The position numbers were made by a program, and so were the translations under genes. The notes under the pieces were generated by a model. It saw only the letters and a list, made by a program, of their open reading frames with translations. It made no database searches and was not told where the DNA came from. 64,000 bases of DNA from Pseudomonas sp. LFM046. Its GTDB lineage: Bacteria > Pseudomonadota > Gammaproteobacteria > Pseudomonadales > Pseudomonadaceae. Of this stretch, positions 42,104 through 52,172 are shown one piece after another. How positions within the stretch are numbered: the first letter of the stretch is position 1; every line of letters starts with the position of its first letter. The stretch spans positions 1,326,620 to 1,390,619 of the forward strand of contig NZ_JYKO02000001.1 in NCBI RefSeq assembly GCF_000949385.2, read 5' to 3'.

Positions 42104-43138
42104 ATGGCATTCACTCACCTCCAGCTCGGCGGCAGCGCCTACGACGTCGGCCACGGCCTGGGTGTCTTTGGCCGCGAGGCAGTACACCGGCACCTGCGTC
42201 CGCTGGCGTTGTGGCGGCACCTGGCGGGGCTTGCCGGCACCGACGCGGCGCGCGGCATGCGCAGCGCCGTGGAGCAGTGCTTCCCGCGCCACTGGCAGGA
42301 AATCGAAGGCCTCGCGGCCGGACTGGAATTGCCGGTAGACGAAGTCTTTCTCTGGAACTGCCGCGGCGACTTCGTGCAGCAGCAGAGCGTCGACGGCTGC
42401 ACCACGGTGCTCGGCCCCACCGCCAGCGGCACCCTGATCGCCCACAACGAAGACGGCCTGCCGCAACTGCGTGGGCACTGCGCGTTGGTCAGCGTCACGC
42501 CGGAGCAGGGCCTTGGCTTCACCTCCTTCGTCTATCCCGGTTCGATTCCCGGCCACACCTTCGCGGTAAACCAGAAGGGGCTGGTGGTGACGGTGAACAA
42601 TATCCGCCCCCGTGCCATTCCGGCGGGCCTGCCTCGTCAGGTGCTGGGACGTGCCAGCCTGGATGCGGCGAGCCTCGATGAGGCTGTGAATATCCTGGCC
42701 AGCGAAGGCCGTGCCGGCGCCTTCCACCACGCCCTGGGGCAGGTGGGCAGTCGTCGCCTGGTCAGCTTCGAGGGTACGTCCGAAGGGTCGTCCGTGGTCG
42801 ATGTGGAGCGGCCGTTCGGTCATTCCAATCATCTGGTCCACCCAGCACTGGAAGACGTTGCGCAGCGCATCACCGGCAGTTCGGGCAATCGCCAGACCTG
42901 CGTGGACGGGCGCGTCGCCTCTCTGGGCAACACGCTCGATCGCGACGATGCGCTGGCGATCCTGCGCGACACCTCGGGCGGCGAACTGCCGGTCTACCGG
43001 TGTGCCGCCGACGATCCGGACGACGAGAACACCCTGGCCACGGCGCTGTTCCTGATCGGCGCGGACGCAGTGGACTGGTCGGTGTACACGGACGCCGACA
43101 CCCGCACCCCGACCCTCAGCGGAAGAGTGGTCGCCTGA
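42104..43138 (+). CDS. C45-family self-processing acyltransferase/amidohydrolase
   Basis: Ntn-hydrolase of the acyl-CoA:6-aminopenicillanate acyltransferase (AAT) type, 344 residues. Such proteins cleave themselves before a Cys that becomes the N-terminal nucleophile; here Cys99 in SVDGCTTVLGP, followed by the conserved LIAHNEDGLP and NQKGLVVTVNN. Bacterial members hydrolyse amide bonds of acylated amino acids or peptides. No signal peptide, so it acts on substrate brought in by the GlnHPQ-type importer. The product amine may go to the aminotransferase at 38224. The true substrate is unknown. Confidence 0.85.
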   Translation: MAFTHLQLGGSAYDVGHGLGVFGREAVHRHLRPLALWRHLAGLAGTDAARGMRSAVEQCFPRHWQEIEGLAAGLELPVDEVFLWNCRGDFVQQQSVDGCTTVLGPTASGTLIAHNEDGLPQLRGHCALVSVTPEQGLGFTSFVYPGSIPGHTFAVNQKGLVVTVNNIRPRAIPAGLPRQVLGRASLDAASLDEAVNILASEGRAGAFHHALGQVGSRRLVSFEGTSEGSSVVDVERPFGHSNHLVHPALEDVAQRITGSSGNRQTCVDGRVASLGNTLDRDDALAILRDTSGGELPVYRCAADDPDDENTLATALFLIGADAVDWSVYTDADTRTPTLSGRVVA

Positions 43139-43220
43139 CCCGAATCCGGCCATCGCGGCCGGGTTCAAGGCTCGGTAGTATGGGCGCCTGCCACCGGGGC
43201 GGGCCCCGGGAAACCTTCAG

Positions 43221-44123
43221 ATGGATGCTGTCATGGCAAATCCCCCAGATACCCTAGCGGGCCTGAAACTGCTGCTCGAAACCATCGAACGGCGCGAGGC
43301 CGACATCTCCCTCGGCAGCAGCTCGCGCCGCGTGCTCACCGCCCTGATCGAGGCGCCCCAGCGTGCGGCGGTGTCCTCCATCAGCGAACTGGCCGAGCAG
43401 TTGGGGGTGAATCCGTCCACCTTCTCGCGCCTGGCACAGAAGCTGGGCTACGGCGGCTTCAGCAAGTTCCAGGATGTATTCCGTCGCGAAGTCACCGAGG
43501 GCCGCACCTTCTACAGCGACCAGGCCCGGCTGTTGGTGCCCACCGGCGGCAACGACAGCATCGGCCAGCTCACCCGTCTGGGACGCCAGGAAAGCGCCAA
43601 CATGGCGAGCATGATCGAGCAGGTGGATTGCGCCGACTTCGACGCCACGGTCGAGCTGCTCACCAGCGCCCGGCGGGTGCGCATCCACGGCATGCGTCAG
43701 TTCACTTCCCTGGCACTGTTCATGTCGTATGCCCTGGGCATGTTGCGCCCGGACGTGGCTGCGCTGGACGCGGCCCGCCAGGGCGTCGCCGATGCCCTGG
43801 CGCAACTGGATGAAGGTGACGTGCTGGTGGTGGCGAGCTGCTTCCCCTACACCCCGAGCGTGCTGGCCACGGCGGAAGTGGCGGCCAAGCATGGCATCAA
43901 GGTCGTCGCCCTGACCGACTCCAGCAGCTCGCCGCTGGCGAAGATCGCCCGCTATAGCTTCAACGTGCCCAACCAGAGCCTGTTCTTCAGCAACAGCATG
44001 TGCGCCTTCATGTTGCTGGCCGAAGGCATTCTCAGCGCCGTGGCCAGTCGCCTGGGCGAAGCCTCCGTGGCGGCCCTCAAGCACCGCGAGGCGCTGATCG
44101 CCGAGCTCAACGCGTCGCTCTGA
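43221..44123 (+). CDS. MurR/RpiR-family transcriptional regulator
   Basis: 300 residues. N-terminal HTH_6 domain (about 10-85; SISELAEQLGVNPSTFSRLAQKLGYGGFSKFQDVFRREV) and a C-terminal SIS domain (about 130-280; RRVRIHGMRQFTSLALFMSYALG, GDVLVVASCFPYTPSVLATAEVA, KVVALTDSSSSPLAKIARYS), which usually binds sugar phosphates but in amino-acid operons may bind other ligands. ATG at 43221 is used; 43233 is an alternative. Its last 17 bases overlap the convergent TetR gene. Probable regulator of the aminotransferase/importer/C45 genes. Confidence 0.9.
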   Translation: MDAVMANPPDTLAGLKLLLETIERREADISLGSSSRRVLTALIEAPQRAAVSSISELAEQLGVNPSTFSRLAQKLGYGGFSKFQDVFRREVTEGRTFYSDQARLLVPTGGNDSIGQLTRLGRQESANMASMIEQVDCADFDATVELLTSARRVRIHGMRQFTSLALFMSYALGMLRPDVAALDAARQGVADALAQLDEGDVLVVASCFPYTPSVLATAEVAAKHGIKVVALTDSSSSPLAKIARYSFNVPNQSLFFSNSMCAFMLLAEGILSAVASRLGEASVAALKHREALIAELNASL

Positions 44124-44745
44124 TTCCCGGCCCCGCGCTGAAGGACGGCTCCAGGCTGGCGGCGGCGCCGAGGATCATCTCGGTGAGCTGTTCGGCGATC
44201 AACTGGGGTGGCAGGGGCGACTCGGTGTCCTCGGCGTCCGGGAGGCTTTCCAGCATGCCGATGACCCCGCTGGTGAAGAACTTCATCCGCGAGCCTTCAA
44301 GGCCCCGGCGGGCCGGGGTGGAACCGATGATGCCGGTCAGGCACTGCGTGTAGTCATTGCGCAGTGCGGCGAGCAGGCGATTCTGTTCGGCCGTCAGGTT
44401 GCGCCGCTCCCGCAGCATGAGCTGCAACCTTTTCCGCTCGCCCTGCTGGAACTCGATGAAGGCGCCGACGAAGGCGCGCAGGCGGGCCCGCGTGCCCTGG
44501 GCGGGCTTCAGCCTGGTGCGGGTGAGGCTGAGCAGATCGCTCATGCACTCCTCGACCAGGTCGAAGAGCAGCGCCTGCTTGCTTTCGATGTGGTTGTACA
44601 GCGAACCCGCGCCTATCCCCAGGCGGGCGGCCAGGTCGCGCAGGCTGGTGTTCGGGTAGCCCTGTTCGGTGAACAGGTCCAGGGCCGCCTCGCGCAGGCG
44701 TTCCTGCGTGCCGGTCGGCTGGACGGAATTCGAGTTGCCGTTCAT
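44107..44745 (-). CDS. TetR-family regulator
   Basis: 212 residues from the start at 44745. The N-terminal HTH (about 15-60) reads RLREAALDLFTEQGYPNTSLRDLAARLGIGAGSLYNHIESKQALLFDLV; the C-terminal ligand domain is unclassified. It is last in the minus-strand row hutU-CoA-transferase-dehydrogenase-permease, 77 bp after the permease, so is a candidate second regulator (with HutC) of that row, perhaps sensing an acyl-CoA as many TetR proteins beside acyl-CoA dehydrogenases do. The gene end overlaps the RpiR gene. Confidence 0.88.
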   Translation of the reverse strand: MNGNSNSVQPTGTQERLREAALDLFTEQGYPNTSLRDLAARLGIGAGSLYNHIESKQALLFDLVEECMSDLLSLTRTRLKPAQGTRARLRAFVGAFIEFQQGERKRLQLMLRERRNLTAEQNRLLAALRNDYTQCLTGIIGSTPARRGLEGSRMKFFTSGVIGMLESLPDAEDTESPLPPQLIAEQLTEMILGAAASLEPSFSAGPGIRATR

Positions 44746-44822: not shown

Positions 44823-46229
44823 CTAGCGCTGTCCCTGGGCAAGGCCCTGGACGTGCGCCTGCGACTGGCGCCGGGCCCACTGCCGGGCGAGCGGGCAATA
44901 AACCAGCGCCGGCACGATCAGGCCCACCAGCCAGGAGATGTCGGTATCACCCAAGTGCTGCACCAGCGGCCCGGTGTAGAAGCCGGTGGCGATGAAGGGC
45001 ATCTGCACCAGCACGCCGAACCCATAGGTGCCGATACCCACCCAGTTCCAGCGGCCGTAGCGGCCATCCGGGTCGTCCAGGGCGGCAACGTCGTAACGCT
45101 CTTTGGTGATGAAGTAGTAGTCCACCAGGTTGATGGCGCTCCAGGGCGTGAAGAACGCCAGCAGGAACAGCAGGAACGACTTGAACGCGCTGAGGAAGGA
45201 ATGCTGGCCGATCAGCGCCAGGCTGGTGGAGACGCCGACAATGCCGAGGACGAACAGCAGGCGCTGGCCGTGGGTGACGGTGAAGCGGCTGCGGAACGCG
45301 CTGACGATGGTGGCGATGCACATGAAGCTGCCGTAGGCGTTCAGGGTGGCGATGGTCACTTTGCCGAAGCCCACGCTGAAGAACAGCAGGCTGGCCATCA
45401 GGCCGCTGGCGCCCAGGCCGACGATGTAGCTCACCTCATGTCCGGAGAAGGCGCCGCCCGCCAGCGCGGCGGCGAACACGCCGAGCACCATGGACGTCTG
45501 CGAGCCCAGCACCGAACCCAGGCCGACGGCGAGGAAGGTGCGCATGGGGGACGTGGAGCTGGGCAGGTAACGCGAGTAGTCGGCAACGTAGGGGCCGAAG
45601 GCGATCTGCCAGGAAGCCGACAGCGAAACGGCCAGGAGGAAGGTGTTCCAGCTGAAGTGCCGGTTGTCGAGCAGGGTGGCGATGTCGTTCACCGACAGCA
45701 GGCGCACGAAGAGGTAGGCGAAGGCCACCACGCCGAGCACGCTGGCGACCCGTCCCAGCAGGTGGATCACGCGGTAGCCGCAGACCGTCAGCACCACGAT
45801 CACGGCGGCGAAGATGAGGATACCCGCCGTGTCGCTGACGTTCGCCATGCGGCCGATGGCCTGGCCGGCGAGGACGGTGCCGGTGGCGTTGAAGCCGATG
45901 TACATGATGCAGACCAGCACCAGCGGGATCACGGCGCCGAACACGCCGAACTGCACGCGGCTGGAAATCATCTGCGGCAGGCCGAGGCGCGGCCCTTGGG
46001 CGCCGTGCAGGGCCATGACGATGCCGCCGAACACCTGGCCGATCAGCAGGCCGATCAATGACCAGAACACATCACCGCCCAGCACCACGGCCAGGGCGCC
46101 GGTGACGATGGCGGTGATCTGCAGGTTGGCCCCGAACCACAAGGTGAATTGGCTGAAGAGGCGGCCGTGCCGTTCGCTCTCGGGGATGTAATCGATGGAG
46201 CGCGTTTCGATAAGGGACTTGCCAGACAT
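44823..46229 (-). CDS. NCS1-family permease (cytosine/purine type), putative imidazole-acid transporter
   Basis: 468 residues, about 12 helices, start at 46229 with GGAGGAAAC. NCS1 features: FTLWFGANLQITAIVTGAL in helix 1, GPRLGLPQMISSRVQFG loop, and SASWQIAFGPYVADYSRYLP. In P. aeruginosa, as I recall, an NCS1 permease lies directly beside hutU, and pseudomonads have urocanate carriers in their hut loci. Its place in one row with hutU suggests uptake of urocanate or a related imidazole acid. The substrate is inferred from context only. Confidence 0.88.
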   Translation of the reverse strand: MSGKSLIETRSIDYIPESERHGRLFSQFTLWFGANLQITAIVTGALAVVLGGDVFWSLIGLLIGQVFGGIVMALHGAQGPRLGLPQMISSRVQFGVFGAVIPLVLVCIMYIGFNATGTVLAGQAIGRMANVSDTAGILIFAAVIVVLTVCGYRVIHLLGRVASVLGVVAFAYLFVRLLSVNDIATLLDNRHFSWNTFLLAVSLSASWQIAFGPYVADYSRYLPSSTSPMRTFLAVGLGSVLGSQTSMVLGVFAAALAGGAFSGHEVSYIVGLGASGLMASLLFFSVGFGKVTIATLNAYGSFMCIATIVSAFRSRFTVTHGQRLLFVLGIVGVSTSLALIGQHSFLSAFKSFLLFLLAFFTPWSAINLVDYYFITKERYDVAALDDPDGRYGRWNWVGIGTYGFGVLVQMPFIATGFYTGPLVQHLGDTDISWLVGLIVPALVYCPLARQWARRQSQAHVQGLAQGQR

Positions 46230-46333
46230 GCGGGTTTCCTCCTGCGGCGCCATTGCCCATGGCGCCTCTATTGTTGTTATTGCAACGGATGCCCTGCGGA
46301 CCTGGACGGCTGGCGCCGCCCGGGTTGGCCGCC

Positions 46334-47479
46334 TCAGCTGCGGGCGGCGTCCAGTACGGCGCGGGAGATGATGATTTTCTGGACCTCGGAGGTGCCTTCG
46401 AAGATGCGCAGGATGCGTGCATCGCGCACGAAGCGTTCCAGTGGCAGGTCGCGGATGTAGCCATAGCCGCCGTGCAGCTGGAGGGCGGCATCGGTGATGA
46501 AGCCGGCGGCCTCGGCGGCGAACAGCTTGGCGGTGGCCGATTCCAGGCTGAAGCGCTCGCCCGAGTCGCGGCGAGCCGCCGCCTGCATGGTCAGCAGGCG
46601 CGCCGCTTCCAGTTGTGCGTGCATGTCCGCCAGGCGCCACTGGGTGCCCTGGTAGGCGGCCAGGGGCTTGGGCCCGATCTGCCGTTCCTGGACCCAGCCG
46701 AGGCTGTATTCCATGGCCGCACGGGCGATGCCCAGGGACATGGCCGCCACCTCGACCCGGCCACGGTCCAGCACTTCCATCGCAGTCTTGAAGCCCTGGC
46801 CTTCCTCGCCCAGCAGGGCCGAGGCGGGCAGCCAGCAATCCAGGGCCAGCTCGTAGATGGTGCTGCCGCGCAGGCCCATGGTCTTCTCCGGGCTGGAGAA
46901 GGTGATGCCCTCGGTGCCCTTGGGGATGAGGAAGGCGCTGATGCCACGGTGGCCGGCCTCGGCATCGGTCTTGGCATAGAGCACGATGAAGTCGGCTTCG
47001 CGGGCGTTGGTGATGTAGTGCTTGCTGCCACGGATGCGCCAGCCGTCGTTCTCCCGGCTGGCGCGGGTGCGCATGTCGGCCGGGTTGGAGCCGGCGGCGG
47101 GTTCGGTCAGGCCGAAGGCGCCGAGCAGCTCGCCGCTGGCGGCGCGGGGCAGCCATTCCTGGCGCTGCGCCTCGGTCGCGCCGATGAGGATGGAGTCGGT
47201 GGCCAGGAAGTGCGCGGTCAGCGCCGAGGCGGTGGAGGCGCAGGCGGCCGCCACGGCTTCCACCACGCGGCTCATCGCCAGGCTGCCGATGCCGAAGCCG
47301 CCGTAGGCCTCGGGCAGGTTGATGCCCATGAAGCCCAGCTCGCCCAGGGCCTTGAGGCTGTCGCCACAGAACGACTCGGCTTCGTCGTAGCGTTGGGCGT
47401 TCGCCTGCAGCACATCACGTGCGACGCGCTCGGCGGATTCGATGACCGCGAGTTCCGCGGCGTCCAGTTCGAAGTTCAT
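46334..47479 (-). CDS. Acyl-CoA dehydrogenase
   Basis: FAD flavoprotein making an alpha,beta-double bond in an acyl-CoA, 381 residues. Start at 47479 (MNFELD): GGAG lies 7 nt upstream, while the in-frame ATG at 47485 is too close. Motifs: FGLTEPAAGSNPADMRT (FAD/substrate), GSKHYITNA, LQLHGGYGYIRDLPLERFVRDARILRIFEGTSEVQ, with catalytic Glu in RIFEGTSE at the medium-chain position. Overlaps the CoA-transferase stop region and is in one row with hutU. In context a 3-imidazolylpropionyl-CoA substrate, giving urocanoyl-CoA, is plausible but unproven. Confidence 0.92.
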   Translation of the reverse strand: MNFELDAAELAVIESAERVARDVLQANAQRYDEAESFCGDSLKALGELGFMGINLPEAYGGFGIGSLAMSRVVEAVAAACASTASALTAHFLATDSILIGATEAQRQEWLPRAASGELLGAFGLTEPAAGSNPADMRTRASRENDGWRIRGSKHYITNAREADFIVLYAKTDAEAGHRGISAFLIPKGTEGITFSSPEKTMGLRGSTIYELALDCWLPASALLGEEGQGFKTAMEVLDRGRVEVAAMSLGIARAAMEYSLGWVQERQIGPKPLAAYQGTQWRLADMHAQLEAARLLTMQAAARRDSGERFSLESATAKLFAAEAAGFITDAALQLHGGYGYIRDLPLERFVRDARILRIFEGTSEVQKIIISRAVLDAARS

Positions 47480-47481
47480 CT

Positions 47482-48639
47482 TCATTCTCCAGAGGGGGTC
47501 AGGCCGAACAGGGCATTGGCTTCGCCCAGGTGCGGGGCGGGCGAGGCGGCGTGGGGTTTGCTGCCGTTGAAGAACACCGGCTGCGGGACCAGCGGCGAGC
47601 GCGCGCCGGCCTCCACCAGCAGTTGGCGGGTCTCGGCCTGCTCGCTGCCGGTGGCCTGGGCGAGGTTCCACACGGGAGAGGAGGGCACGCCGGCGTCCAG
47701 CAGCAGGTCGCAGATCTGCTCGACGCGGCGGGTGCCCGTCCAGGCTTCGATCTCCGCCTTCAGTGCGGTTTCGTTGGCGGTACGCGAGCCGTCGTCGACG
47801 AAGCGCGGGTCATCGGCCAGGGCCTCACGTTCCATGCTCTGGCACAGGCGGCGGAACAACTTGTCGCTGGCCACCGCGATCACCACCAGGCCATCGGCGG
47901 CGCGGTAGGTGTCGAAGGGCGTCGAGACCGGGTGGCGGTTGCCCACCAGGCCAGGGGCGTTGCCGTGCGCGAAGAGGTTGGACAGGCCGGTCATCTGCAG
48001 GCTGACCAGCACGTCGAACATCGCCACGTCGAGGTACTGTGCGCCGGCACCGTGGAACTCGCGGGCGAACAGCGCGGAGCTGATCGCCCAGGCGGCGTAG
48101 ACCCCGGCGCAGAGGTCGCCGAGGGCTTCGCCGCTGCGGGTCGGGCCGGTCTCGGGGAAGCCGGTCACGCTCATCAGCCCGGACATGGCCTGGGCGACGA
48201 TGTCGTAGGCCGGGCGGGCGGACAGCGGCCCGCTCTGGCCGAAGCCGGAAATGCTGGCGTAGATCAGCCGGGGGTTGTGCGCCGTGAGGCTGTCGAAATC
48301 GATGCCCAGCCGCTGCGTCACGCCGGGGCGGAAGTTCTCCACCACCACGTCGGCGTCGGCCACCAGTTCGAGGAAGCGCTGCCGCTCGGCGGGGGCCTTG
48401 AAGTCGAGTTCGACGCTGCGTTTGCCACGGTTGATCAGGCCGAAGTAGATGCTCTCGCCATCCTCGCCGAAGGGGCCCAGGTGGCGGCTGTCGTCGCCGT
48501 GGCCGGGGACCTCGAACTTGATGACCTCGGCGCCCAGGTCGGCCAGCATCGCAGTGCAATGCGGGCCGGCCAGCACGCGGCTGAGATCGAGCACGCGGAT
48601 GCCTTGCAGCGGCTTAGGGGTGTGGTTCTGCTTGTTCAT
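47482..48639 (-). CDS. CaiB/BaiF-family CoA-transferase
   Basis: Class III CoA-transferase, 385 residues. N-terminal LQGIRVLDLSRVLAGPHCTAMLADLGAEVIKFE and the RGKRSVELDF segment are signatures; the catalytic Asp is in QYLDVAMFDVLVS. Enzymes of this class pass CoA between carboxylic acids without ATP. It lies 11 bp after hutU and directly before the acyl-CoA dehydrogenase, mirroring the CaiB-CaiA pair of carnitine metabolism. A cycle in which urocanoyl-CoA donates CoA to imidazolepropionate would release urocanate to HutU. Confidence 0.92.
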   Translation of the reverse strand: MNKQNHTPKPLQGIRVLDLSRVLAGPHCTAMLADLGAEVIKFEVPGHGDDSRHLGPFGEDGESIYFGLINRGKRSVELDFKAPAERQRFLELVADADVVVENFRPGVTQRLGIDFDSLTAHNPRLIYASISGFGQSGPLSARPAYDIVAQAMSGLMSVTGFPETGPTRSGEALGDLCAGVYAAWAISSALFAREFHGAGAQYLDVAMFDVLVSLQMTGLSNLFAHGNAPGLVGNRHPVSTPFDTYRAADGLVVIAVASDKLFRRLCQSMEREALADDPRFVDDGSRTANETALKAEIEAWTGTRRVEQICDLLLDAGVPSSPVWNLAQATGSEQAETRQLLVEAGARSPLVPQPVFFNGSKPHAASPAPHLGEANALFGLTPSGE

Positions 48640-48650
48640 GACGTCAGCCC

Positions 48651-50327
48651 TCAGCGCTTGCCGGTGATCATCGGCAGGTTCAGACCCTGTTCCTTGGCGC
48701 AGTCGATGGCGATCTGGTAACCGGCATCGGCGTGGCGCATGACGCCCGTGCCCGGGTCGTTGGTCAGGACGCGGGCGATACGCGCCGCCGCTTCGTCGGT
48801 GCCGTCACAGACGATCACCATGCCCGAGTGCTGGGAGAAGCCCATGCCCACGCCGCCGCCGTGGTGCAGCGAAACCCAGGTGGCGCCGCTGGCGGTGTTC
48901 AGCAGGGCGTTGAGCAGCGGCCAGTCGGAGACGGCGTCGGAGCCGTCCTGCATCGCTTCGGTTTCGCGGTTCGGGCTGGACACCGAGCCGGAGTCCAGGT
49001 GGTCGCGGCCGATCACGATCGGCGCGGACAGCTCGCCGGAGCGGACCATCTCGTTGAAGGCCAGGCCGAGCTTGGCGCGCAGGCCCAGGCCGACCCAGCA
49101 GATCCGCGCCGGCAGACCCTGGAAGCTGATGCGCTCGCGGGCCATGTCCAGCCAGCGGTGCAGGTGGGCGTCGTCCGGGATCAGTTCCTTGACCTTGGCG
49201 TCGGTCTTGTAGATGTCCTGCGGATCACCCGACAGCACCGCCCAGCGGAACGGGCCGATGCCGCGGCAGAACAGCGGACGGATGTAGGCCGGGACGAAGC
49301 CGGGGAAGTCGAAGGCGTTGGCCACGCCCTCTTCCTTGGCCATCTGGCGGATGTTGTTGCCGTAGTCGAAGGTCGGCACGCCCATCTTCTGGAAGTCCAG
49401 CATGGCCTGCACGTGCACCGCCATGGACTGCTTGGCGGCCTTGACCACGGCAGCCGGCTCGGTCTGCGCGCGGTCGCGGTACTGCTCCCAGGTCCAGCCG
49501 ATCGGCAGGTAGCCGTTCAGCGGGTCGTGGGCGCTGGTCTGGTCGGTGACCATGTCCGGGCGCACGCCACGGCGGACCAGCTCCGGCAGGATTTCGGCGG
49601 CGTTGCCCAGCAGGGCGACGGAGATGGCCTTGCCCTCGGCGGTGTACTTGGCGATGCGCGCCAGGGCGTCGTCCAGGTCGGTGGCCTGCTCGTCGACGTA
49701 GCGGCTGCGCAGGCGGAAGTCGATGCTGGTCTGCTGGCACTCGATGTTCAGCGAGCAGGCGCCGGCCAGGGTGGCGGCCAGGGGCTGGGCGCCGCCCATG
49801 CCGCCGAGGCCGGCGGTGAGCACCCAGCGGCCGGTGAGGTTGCCGTTGTAGTGCTGGCGGCCGGCCTCGACGAAGGTTTCGTAGGTGCCCTGGACGATGC
49901 CCTGGCTACCGATGTAGATCCAGCTGCCGGCGGTCATCTGGCCGTACATGGCCAGGCCCTTGGCGTCCAGTTCGTTGAAGTGTTCCCAGTTGGCCCAGTG
50001 CGGCACCAGGTTGGAGTTGGCGATCAGCACGCGCGGGGCGTTGGCGTGGGTCTTGAACACGCCGACCGGCTTGCCGGATTGCACCAGCAGGGTCTCGTCG
50101 TCGTTCAGCTCCTTCAGGGTCTCGACGATCTTGTCGTAGCACTCCCAGTTGCGCGCGGCACGGCCGATGCCGCCGTACACCACCAGCTCTTTCGGGTTCT
50201 CCGCCACCTCGGGGTCGAGGTTGTTCATCAGCATGCGCAGCGGCGCTTCGGTCAGCCAGCTCTTGGCGTTCAGCTTGGTGCCACGCGGGGCGCGGATTTC
50301 GGTGTCACGGAAGCGGGAGGCTTTCAT
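48651..50327 (-). CDS. hutU: Urocanate hydratase HutU
   Basis: NAD-dependent urocanase converting urocanate to imidazolone propionate, second step of histidine breakdown. 558 residues, start at 50327 after AAGGAAAC. Active-site Cys410 ([14 protein letters not shown]) falls at the number known from P. putida; [35 protein letters not shown] and the [15 protein letters not shown] segment are family hallmarks. No hutH, hutI or hutG lies in the window, so this may be a second copy dedicated to the CoA-linked row behind it. Confidence 0.97.
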
Positions 50328-50415: not shown

Positions 50416-50449
50416 TATACATACAACCATATATCAACCTGTATATACA
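50416..50449 (-). promoter_or_regulatory. HutC operator(s) in hutU promoter
   Basis: Perfect TGTATATACA at 50440-50449 fits the TGTA-N2-TACA site described for Pseudomonas HutC. A second imperfect copy TATACATACA lies at 50416-50425. On the minus strand TTGCCT with 17-19 bp spacing to TTGATA/GATATA could form the promoter, placing the operator in the spacer. The rest of the 388-bp gap 50328-50715 shows no gene. Confidence 0.68.
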
Positions 50450-50652
50450 AGCTAAGGCAAAAACAGGACCAACCTGCCGAGGGCGCCTTGCATCGGGGCC
50501 TCAGGGAATGGAGATGCGCTTATTTTTCAATGGGTTGAGTGGGCGAGACAGGTACTGTCGGCGCGCGCTGGGGCGGACGGAGAAGCCGGCCAGGGCGACG
50601 GACGGAGCGAAAAAAGGTAACGGCGCCTGTTTCGGGTAACGCCCGAACGGCG

Positions 50653-50715: not shown

Positions 50716-51468
50716 TTACTGGCCGAAGCGGCCTTCGAGGCGGTAGCGTGAGCCGGGGTAGACGAGGCGGGCGCAGCCCACTTGCCCCTTGCCGGACCAG
50801 CTGCGGCGGCGGATGAGCAGGCAGGGATCGGTGCGCTTGATGCGCAGCAGCTTGCATTCGGTGGGCGTCGCCTGGATGGCTTCCACCATGTGCTCGGCTT
50901 CGGTCAGCGGCGCCAGTTGCACGAGATAGGCGAAGGGGGTGACGCGGGTGAAGTCCTGCTTCAGGTAGTCGGGGGCGACGTCCGCGTTGACGAAGCGTTC
51001 CTCGATCTGCACCGGGATTTCGTTTTCGTAGTGCACCAGCACCGAGTGGAACAGCGTGCGTACCCCGTCCAGGGGGAAGGGCAGCGAGGCCGCGTCCTGG
51101 TTTGCCAGCGCTTCGAGCAGGATCACTTCGCTGCGATGGGTGTGGCCGCGCGAGGTGATTTCCTCGGCGATGTCATGGATCTGGAACAGCGCGGCATGGC
51201 CCTTGGCTTCGGCAACGAACGTGCCCACCCCCTGCACCCGCACCAGCACGCCTTCGATAGTGAGTTCGCGCAGCGCGCGATTGATGGTCATGCGGCTGAC
51301 GCCCAACTGGTTGAACAGCTCGCTCTCGGAGGGAAGCTTGAAGTTCGGTCCCCAGACGCCGGTACGAATCTGCTGCAGGATGATGTCCTTGACCCTGGCG
51401 TAAAGCGGGGCGGGGCTTTCGAGGGCAAAGGCGGCCAAGGATGCGCGGTCGTCGGAGGAGTGGGGCAC
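50716..51468 (-). CDS. hutC: Histidine utilization repressor HutC
   Basis: GntR-family HutC-subclass repressor released by urocanate, 250 residues, GTG start at 51468. N-terminal winged helix (YARVKDIILQQIRTG...LPSESELFNQLGVSRMTINRALRELT) and C-terminal UTRA ligand domain (about 100-245; FQIHDIAEEITSRGHTHRSEV, QIEERFVNADVAPDYLKQDF, IQATPTECKLLRIKRTDPCLLIRRR). Own terminator downstream; target site is the TGTATATACA before hutU. HutD, often next to hutC, is absent. Confidence 0.93.
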   Translation of the reverse strand: MPHSSDDRASLAAFALESPAPLYARVKDIILQQIRTGVWGPNFKLPSESELFNQLGVSRMTINRALRELTIEGVLVRVQGVGTFVAEAKGHAALFQIHDIAEEITSRGHTHRSEVILLEALANQDAASLPFPLDGVRTLFHSVLVHYENEIPVQIEERFVNADVAPDYLKQDFTRVTPFAYLVQLAPLTEAEHMVEAIQATPTECKLLRIKRTDPCLLIRRRSWSGKGQVGCARLVYPGSRYRLEGRFGQ

Positions 51469-51563: not shown

Positions 51564-52172
51564 CTATTGGGCGCTGCTCGCCATGGTCGGCTTCAGCGCC
51601 CGTCTCACCTCGGCCTGAATCTTGTACGCCGGCGCCTCCACGGTGTTGTAGTCGCGGGTGTAACGCTGGGCGAAGCCTGCCACGCCCCATTCCTGGTACT
51701 GCTTCACGTGATGCAGTTCGTGGGCCCAGAGGGCGACGTTGTTCTCGGCGTCTTCCGCGTTGCGGAAAACGATCACGTCCACCAGGGTCACGGCTTCCAC
51801 GTCGGGGTTCTGCATCAGGGTGTTGGCGGCGTTCACCTCGTCGTCGACGCCCACCTTGTAGCGCACGGTATCCAGTACCCCCAGGTCGTACCAGGGTTCC
51901 AGCTGCGCGCGAATGTGCAGCGGAATGGGCTGCAACCGGCTGGCGTCCATGTTGTTGCGTGATTCCACGATCCACTGCTGCAGGCTGGTGGAGGCCATCT
52001 GGTTGACGCCTTCCAGCAGCGGCGCCATGTCCCCCTGGCTGCCCGGCGCGCAGAAGCAGGTCACCACGCAGACCTTCGATTGCCCGGCGGGGCAGGCGAG
52101 GGCGGTGGTGGAAATCAAGGAAAGTGCAATGGCGAATGTGCGAAGAAACGTGCATGTGGATACAGCGAGCAA
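51564..52172 (-). CDS. Secreted DUF4157-like putative zinc metalloprotein
   Basis: 202 residues. A TTG start at 52172 is supported by GGGAGG 6-7 nt upstream; the frame then gives a signal peptide (FLRTFAIALSLISTTALACPAG). A thermolysin-like zinc motif is visible in LWAHELHHVKQYQEWGV (HExxH), with RYTRDYNTVEAPAY further on. This fits DUF4157, a domain found alone or linked to extracellular contractile injection systems. Several Cys (CPAGQSKVCVVTCFC) may form disulfides outside the cytoplasm. Not obviously related to its hut neighbours; function unknown. Confidence 0.75.
   Translation of the reverse strand: MLAVSTCTFLRTFAIALSLISTTALACPAGQSKVCVVTCFCAPGSQGDMAPLLEGVNQMASTSLQQWIVESRNNMDASRLQPIPLHIRAQLEPWYDLGVLDTVRYKVGVDDEVNAANTLMQNPDVEAVTLVDVIVFRNAEDAENNVALWAHELHHVKQYQEWGVAGFAQRYTRDYNTVEAPAYKIQAEVRRALKPTMASSAQ

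Follow-up and report, generated by a model that had tools for sequence, protein, structure and literature searches.

A second hutU gene beside CoA-transferase and acyl-CoA dehydrogenase genes in Pseudomonas sp. LFM046: a putative branch feeding imidazolepropionate into the histidine utilization pathway

We analyzed a four-gene block in a 64-kb stretch of the genome of Pseudomonas sp. LFM046 (contig NZ_JYKO02000001.1, positions 1,326,620 to 1,390,619; hereafter, the window). A second copy of the urocanate hydratase gene (hutU2) is followed by genes for a class III CaiB-type CoA-transferase (CaiB), an acyl-CoA dehydrogenase (ACAD), and an NCS1 permease, and is preceded by an operator and a gene, hutC2, for a repressor of histidine utilization (hut). 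We consider that this block would feed imidazolepropionate (dihydrourocanate) into the hut pathway as a peripheral branch of histidine utilization, and we assign this interpretation a probability of about 0.77. The same imidazolepropionate-to-urocanate route was proposed in an earlier sequence-only reading of the window, and it is supported here by the linkage of the CoA genes to hut genes, by the embedding of the module in full hut operons, by HutC-type promoters before CaiB, and by associated genes for electron transfer flavoprotein (ETF). Acyl-CoA dehydrogenases introduce an alpha,beta-double bond into a CoA ester, and dehydrogenated imidazolepropionate is urocanate, the substrate of HutU. 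What we infer about the substrate and the CoA donor, the reaction direction, the specificity of the transporter, the inducer, and the enzyme activities is as follows. The NCS1 permease would import imidazolepropionate, and the CaiB-type transferase would move CoA onto it from urocanoyl-CoA, the cycle being primed by another acyl-CoA donor, e.g., succinyl-CoA. The ACAD would oxidize imidazolepropionyl-CoA to urocanoyl-CoA and pass the electrons through ETF and ETF:quinone oxidoreductase to the respiratory chain. Passing the CoA to the next imidazolepropionate molecule would free urocanate, which HutU2 would hydrate, and HutI, HutF, and HutG of the main hut locus would complete the breakdown. 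HutC2 would repress a sigma-54-type promoter, with urocanate, and plausibly also imidazolepropionate, acting as the releasing ligand.

We examined the conservation of the block within the family Pseudomonadaceae. A close homologue of the CoA-transferase was found in 4 of 18 genomes of the genus and in 18 of 399 genomes of the family, and in 17 of the 18 family genomes carrying CaiB, this gene adjoins hutU and is followed by the ACAD and NCS1 permease genes. Other species share the block order at identities of 72–86% for CaiB and 81–93% for the ACAD. In loci L032–L034, the module is part of a single operon, hutU-CaiB-ACAD-NCS1-hutI-hutG, from which hutH diverges, and each of these genomes has just one hutU. 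Because the gene arrangement recurs in 18/399 family genomes and across two phyla, as described below, it cannot be ascribed to chance; the block is conserved as a unit. The sequence-only reading had held that homologous blocks with hutU unlinked to the CoA genes would speak against it. A few such loci exist, namely L035 and a further Pseudomonas record (L040), both with HutC-CaiB-ACAD but without hutU; however, HutC and its operator are kept in both.

The regulatory region was conserved together with the genes. HutC2 scored 287 bits against TIGR02018 (cut-off, 220), which together with the operator identifies it as a HutC repressor, and 328 bits against the stricter model NF011575, below the cut-off of 424. 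It is 65% identical to the canonical HutC and 74–82% identical to the block HutC of other genomes. The published consensus of the HutC operator is TGTA-N2-TACA (PMC12977541). The sequence TGTATATACA is the only match in the window, in which about 0.2 would be expected. This operator lies 112 bp before hutU2 and adjoins a sigma-54-like element, GGTCCTGTTTTTGC, and the same composite is found before the canonical hutU as well as before the blocks in other pseudomonads. In L035 and L040, the composite promoter/operator stands directly before CaiB, and in Acinetobacter (L045) there are separate operators, one before CaiB and one before hutU. Since the operator stays before CaiB where hutU is missing, HutC control belongs to the CoA genes themselves. 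As a separate observation, the Comamonas terrae locus (L062, 5910–10101) encodes an NMT1/THI5-type ABC transporter next to hutC and hutH. A HutC-type operator (8814) is placed upstream of this transporter, which may be another uptake route, and a LysR gene is divergent from CaiB-ACAD.

We then surveyed relatives of the CoA-transferase beyond the family, taking the 80 best from a single scan across 84,980 species genomes and examining about 10 kb on each side. Among the 40 loci with at least 47% CaiB identity, 33 had a hut enzyme gene, HutC, or HutTu near CaiB, and 34 had an ACAD of at least 45% identity. Among the 40 loci below 47%, either feature was found in only one (Fisher p ∼3e-14 for the contrast, kinship ignored). 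The hut-linked loci occurred in varied gene orders in Citrobacter, Providencia, Acinetobacter, Halomonas, Comamonas, Variovorax, Acidovorax, Paracoccus, other Rhodobacterales, Acetobacter, and Brevibacterium, and hut-linked CaiB thus spans Pseudomonadota and Actinomycetota. The typical order in Rhodobacterales was hutI-hutH-hutG-CaiB-ACAD-hutU, and in the genus Comamonas, 15 of 41 sampled genomes carried the CaiB clade. In a quick tree of 90 CoA-transferases, a supported branch divided a hut-linked clade (44 of 51 rows linked) from the remainder (0 of 39). The genomes of the linked clade also had hutU and hutI above the cut-off in 39/40 cases each, compared with hutU in 25/39 genomes with non-linked CaiB homologues, but the two sets differ in taxonomy, so that this comparison carries less weight than the linkage. 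These data bear on the view that the block degrades an unrelated short-chain acid (e.g., glutarate-like or an arylpropionate) and that its hut linkage is only regulatory co-option. At the level of families, the two enzymes do resemble oxalate and succinate-glutarate CoA-transferases and several acyl-CoA dehydrogenases, but no match reaches its cut-off. However, linkage to hutU, hutI, and hutH across two phyla in varied order, and HutC control that was retained after the loss of hutU, are hard to account for unless the product is a hut metabolite, and we regard this view as very unlikely.

The families and residues of the two enzymes were examined next. The CaiB-type protein matched PF02515 with 391.7 bits (E = 4e-117), and its D175 aligns with the catalytic Asp of YfdE and was invariant in all 59 clade members examined, as expected of a class III CoA-transferase. 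The ACAD has the three ACAD domains and the conserved catalytic Glu, E361, in an EGTSE motif, which identifies it as an acyl-CoA dehydrogenase. Neither enzyme passes the models of the carnitine system: the ACAD reached 169.8 bits against NF002885 (CaiA; cut-off, 540) and the CoA-transferase 105.8 bits against NF002914 (CaiB; cut-off, 413). Both match Pfam families and reach no named NCBI equivalog; therefore, their specific function lies outside current annotation models. In the hut-linked ACADs, D95 was found in 53/53 sequences and an acidic residue (E/D) at position 243 in 53/53, and eight outgroup sequences were without both. If placed near the acyl pocket, these acidic groups would fit the binding of an imidazole ring.

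HutU2 and its relationship to the rest of the genome were also analyzed. HutU2 matched TIGR01228 with 1028 bits (cut-off, 375) over positions 2–545 of 545 and is therefore a urocanate hydratase. A second, complete hut locus, whose presence the sequence-only reading had wished to see checked, is located elsewhere on the chromosome (C1:5414000–5433500, L004) and contains hutF, hutC, an ABC transporter (ProX/ProV type), hutU, a HutTu-type NCS1 permease, hutH, an amino-acid permease, hutI, and hutG. The block permease is 72% identical to the NCS1 permease next to hutU/hutH in that locus and is likely a paralogue of the hut permease HutTu. hutU2 and the canonical hutU (L004, 11487–13157) share 99.3% DNA identity over 1657 bp, and in other genomes the two copies are 94–98% identical. 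Such near-identity, taken alone, could suggest a simple duplication of hut genes, in which a second hutU, HutC, and permease landed by chance beside a CoA-transferase/ACAD pair of the fatty-acid type. However, the identity stops at the ends of the hutU open reading frame (ORF), other species share the block order at the CaiB and ACAD identities given above, and embedded single-copy versions exist. A simple recent duplication is thus contradicted by the conservation and by the restriction of the identity to the ORF, and we consider this explanation extremely improbable. Eight genomes hold both copies in full, and in five of them the two hutU genes group as sisters; several draft assemblies are interrupted within hutU, as happens at near-identical repeats. 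Because the copies are sisters, the identity is confined to the ORF, and the assemblies break in hutU, we read this pattern as gene conversion; recurrent conversion looks to have kept HutU2 an ordinary urocanase. This would mean that the block needs a urocanase, while the main locus can supply the remaining urocanate catabolism.

The direction of the pathway is suggested by accessory genes. In Citrobacter and three Providencia genomes, the operon continues after the permease with EtfB, EtfA, and ETF:quinone oxidoreductase (L041–L044, 13905–17799), the last with ubiquinone-binding and 4Fe-4S domains, and the Halomonas version has EtfB and EtfA. ETF and ETF:quinone oxidoreductase are the respiratory outlet of acyl-CoA dehydrogenases, so their presence in the block argues for the oxidation of a saturated acid. 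The reverse has to be considered, i.e., that urocanate serves as an electron sink and is reduced to imidazolepropionate, in analogy to the action of CaiAB on crotonobetaine. The resemblance to the CaiB/CaiA families, the ability of acyl-CoA dehydrogenases to run in reverse, and the closest NCBIfam match of the ACAD, an acryloyl-CoA reductase (below the cut-off), are consistent with such a reduction. Nevertheless, the block is linked to degradative hut genes and HutC, the enterobacterial versions carry a respiratory dehydrogenase partner, and several genera with the block are known to be aerobic (Pseudomonas, Brevibacterium, Paracoccus, and Comamonas). We therefore consider the reductive direction quite unlikely. 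The Citrobacter and Providencia versions are, in addition, self-contained for electron transfer.

Several findings weigh against the proposed imidazolepropionate branch. No CoA ligase that could prime the CoA cycle is present in the block. Seven members of the CaiB clade had no hut gene in the examined stretch. Homologues of the TetR-family regulator behind the block (38–54% identity) were found only in L023, L024, L025, L036, and L038, i.e., in 5 of 17 related loci, and TetR, being mostly not conserved, was rejected as a core part of the module. Finally, in L057, L063, and L075, the same CaiB clade is linked to thiourocanate hydratase genes, with different ACADs; CaiB may therefore accept other imidazole acids. 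These three loci also favor the explanation that the same chemistry acts on a substituted imidazolepropionate (e.g., N-methyl or 2-thio, derived from methylhistidines or ergothioneine) that is oxidized to the matching urocanate. Against this, HutU2 is a standard urocanase, nearly identical to the canonical enzyme, and it scored below the cut-offs of the models for thiourocanate hydratase (NF058530; 685 bits, cut-off 930) and S-methyl-thiourocanate. Moreover, the embedded loci hold one ordinary hut operon, and the thiourocanate loci have different ACADs. We judge a substituted substrate to be unlikely, and a thiourocanate/ergothioneine route for the window block was rejected because HutU2 does not reach the cut-off of the thiourocanate hydratase model. 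The thiourocanate hydratase genes themselves (L057, 5381–7003; L063, 4819–6318; L075, 3253–4827) lie 3–5 kb from CaiB, and only distantly related ACAD-family genes stand beside CaiB at these loci, where a parallel module for thio-imidazole acids from ergothioneine is possible.

We compared the proposed branch with known systems. In the hut pathway of pseudomonads (HutC, HutU, HutTu, HutI, HutF, and HutG), the counterparts of HutU2, HutC2, the promoter, and probably the permease are paralogues, and urocanate would enter there; unlike that pathway, the block would be entered through a CoA-transferase and an ACAD instead of HutH and histidine. To our knowledge, this enzyme pair is not part of any described hut pathway. 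In benzylsuccinate degradation, BbsEF, a class III CoA-transferase, activates the acid and BbsG, an acyl-CoA dehydrogenase, dehydrogenates it at the alpha,beta-position. The block would follow the same two steps, and a benzylsuccinate transferase was among the PDB matches of the CoA-transferase (9fn0). However, the block has a single transferase gene rather than two subunits, the sequence relation is weak, and the proposed product acid would be released to urocanase with no full beta-oxidation. CaiA/CaiB of E. coli belong to the same two protein families and cycle CoA between an acid and an unsaturated acyl-CoA, but the carnitine system is reductive and anaerobic, and the block is without CaiC, CaiD, and FixABCX. 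In Clostridium sporogenes, FldA is an aryl-lactate CoA-transferase with an arylacrylyl-CoA donor and AcdA is an arylacrylyl-CoA reductase. In its described functions, this pair resembles the block by joining a class III CoA-transferase to an ACAD-family enzyme acting on an aryl-acrylate side chain; it reduces, whereas the block is proposed to oxidize. UrdA, the urocanate reductase (urdA) and the known source of imidazolepropionate, interconverts the same two metabolites; it is a flavoprotein acting on free acids, whereas the block would use CoA esters in the opposite direction, and no UrdA-like gene is present in the block.

Imidazole propionate is a product of gut microbes that has been linked to diabetes. 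Reviews describe it as a microbial product of histidine tied to insulin resistance and cardiometabolic disease (PMC11872695). We found no assignment of genes for imidazolepropionate breakdown in the open-licence papers searched, and nothing relevant there on imidazolepropionyl-CoA, urocanoyl-CoA, or a hut operon with an acyl-CoA dehydrogenase. A 1965 paper by Schlesinger and Magasanik, going by its title, reportedly dealt with imidazolepropionate as a non-metabolizable inducer of hut in Aerobacter aerogenes, and we count this in favor of the proposed branch. Coote and Hassall reportedly described, around 1973, the oxidation of imidazolylpropionate via urocanate in Pseudomonas (now Comamonas) testosteroni, with which the occurrence of the CaiB clade in 15 of 41 sampled Comamonas genomes would agree. 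It seems fairly probable that the present data amount to the first gene-level account of bacterial imidazolepropionate degradation: a portable, HutC-controlled CoA-transferase/ACAD module, equipped in some bacteria with a dedicated ETF and ETF:quinone oxidoreductase. Such a module, spread over Pseudomonadota and Actinomycetota, would turn a reported non-metabolizable hut inducer into a growth substrate. If this is true, the module would mark imidazolepropionate consumers in microbiomes, including relatives of Providencia and Citrobacter, its enzymes could be used to measure or remove imidazolepropionate, and a textbook catabolic pathway would have a second entry.

The features of the window are listed in Table 1. 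The four minus-strand genes are real and lie at the coordinates proposed in the sequence-only reading, with TetR behind the block and HutC and its operator in front. The gap between hutU2 and CaiB is 11 bp and that between the ACAD and permease genes is 107 bp (previously given as about 100 bp), as proposed, whereas the proposed overlap holds only if the ACAD begins at 47485, when CaiB and the ACAD share 4 nt (ATGA); otherwise, they are separated by 2 bp. The earlier statement that hutH, hutI, and hutG are absent was borne out by tblastn with the genome's own copies, which detected none of hutH, hutI, hutG, or hutF in the window; the block is thus not a complete hut operon (hutH, hutU, and hutI together with hutG/hutF).

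Table 1. Coordinates of the block and its flanking elements (window positions; aa, amino acids).
Feature	Position	Strand	Model or basis; proposed role
hutU2, urocanate hydratase, 558 aa, second copy in the genome	48651..50327	minus	TIGR01228
Class III CaiB-type CoA-transferase, 385 aa	47482..48639	minus	PF02515; proposed imidazolepropionate:urocanoyl-CoA CoA-transferase
Acyl-CoA dehydrogenase (ACAD), 381 aa	46337..47479 (alternative start 47485)	minus	PF00441/PF02770/PF02771; proposed imidazolepropionyl-CoA dehydrogenase
NCS1 permease, HutTu-like	44823..46229	minus	PF02133; proposed imidazolepropionate/urocanate importer
TetR-family regulator, downstream of the block	44107..44745	minus	PF00440/PF17932; membership uncertain
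hutC2, GntR/UTRA histidine-utilization repressor, block-specific paralogue	50716..51468	minus	TIGR02018
HutC operator TGTATATACA in front of hutU2	50440..50449	minus	match to HutC consensus
Sigma-54-like -24/-12 element GGTCCTGTTTTTGC, just upstream of the operator	50457..50470	minus	

Two further observations concern the neighboring genes. Beside hutC2, positions 51564–52172 of the window encode a small protein with an eCIS_core domain (PF13699). On the other side, at 42104–44123, a C45-type autoproteolytic acyltransferase/hydrolase is located by an RpiR/SIS regulator and an ABC ATPase, which looks like a separate small cluster.

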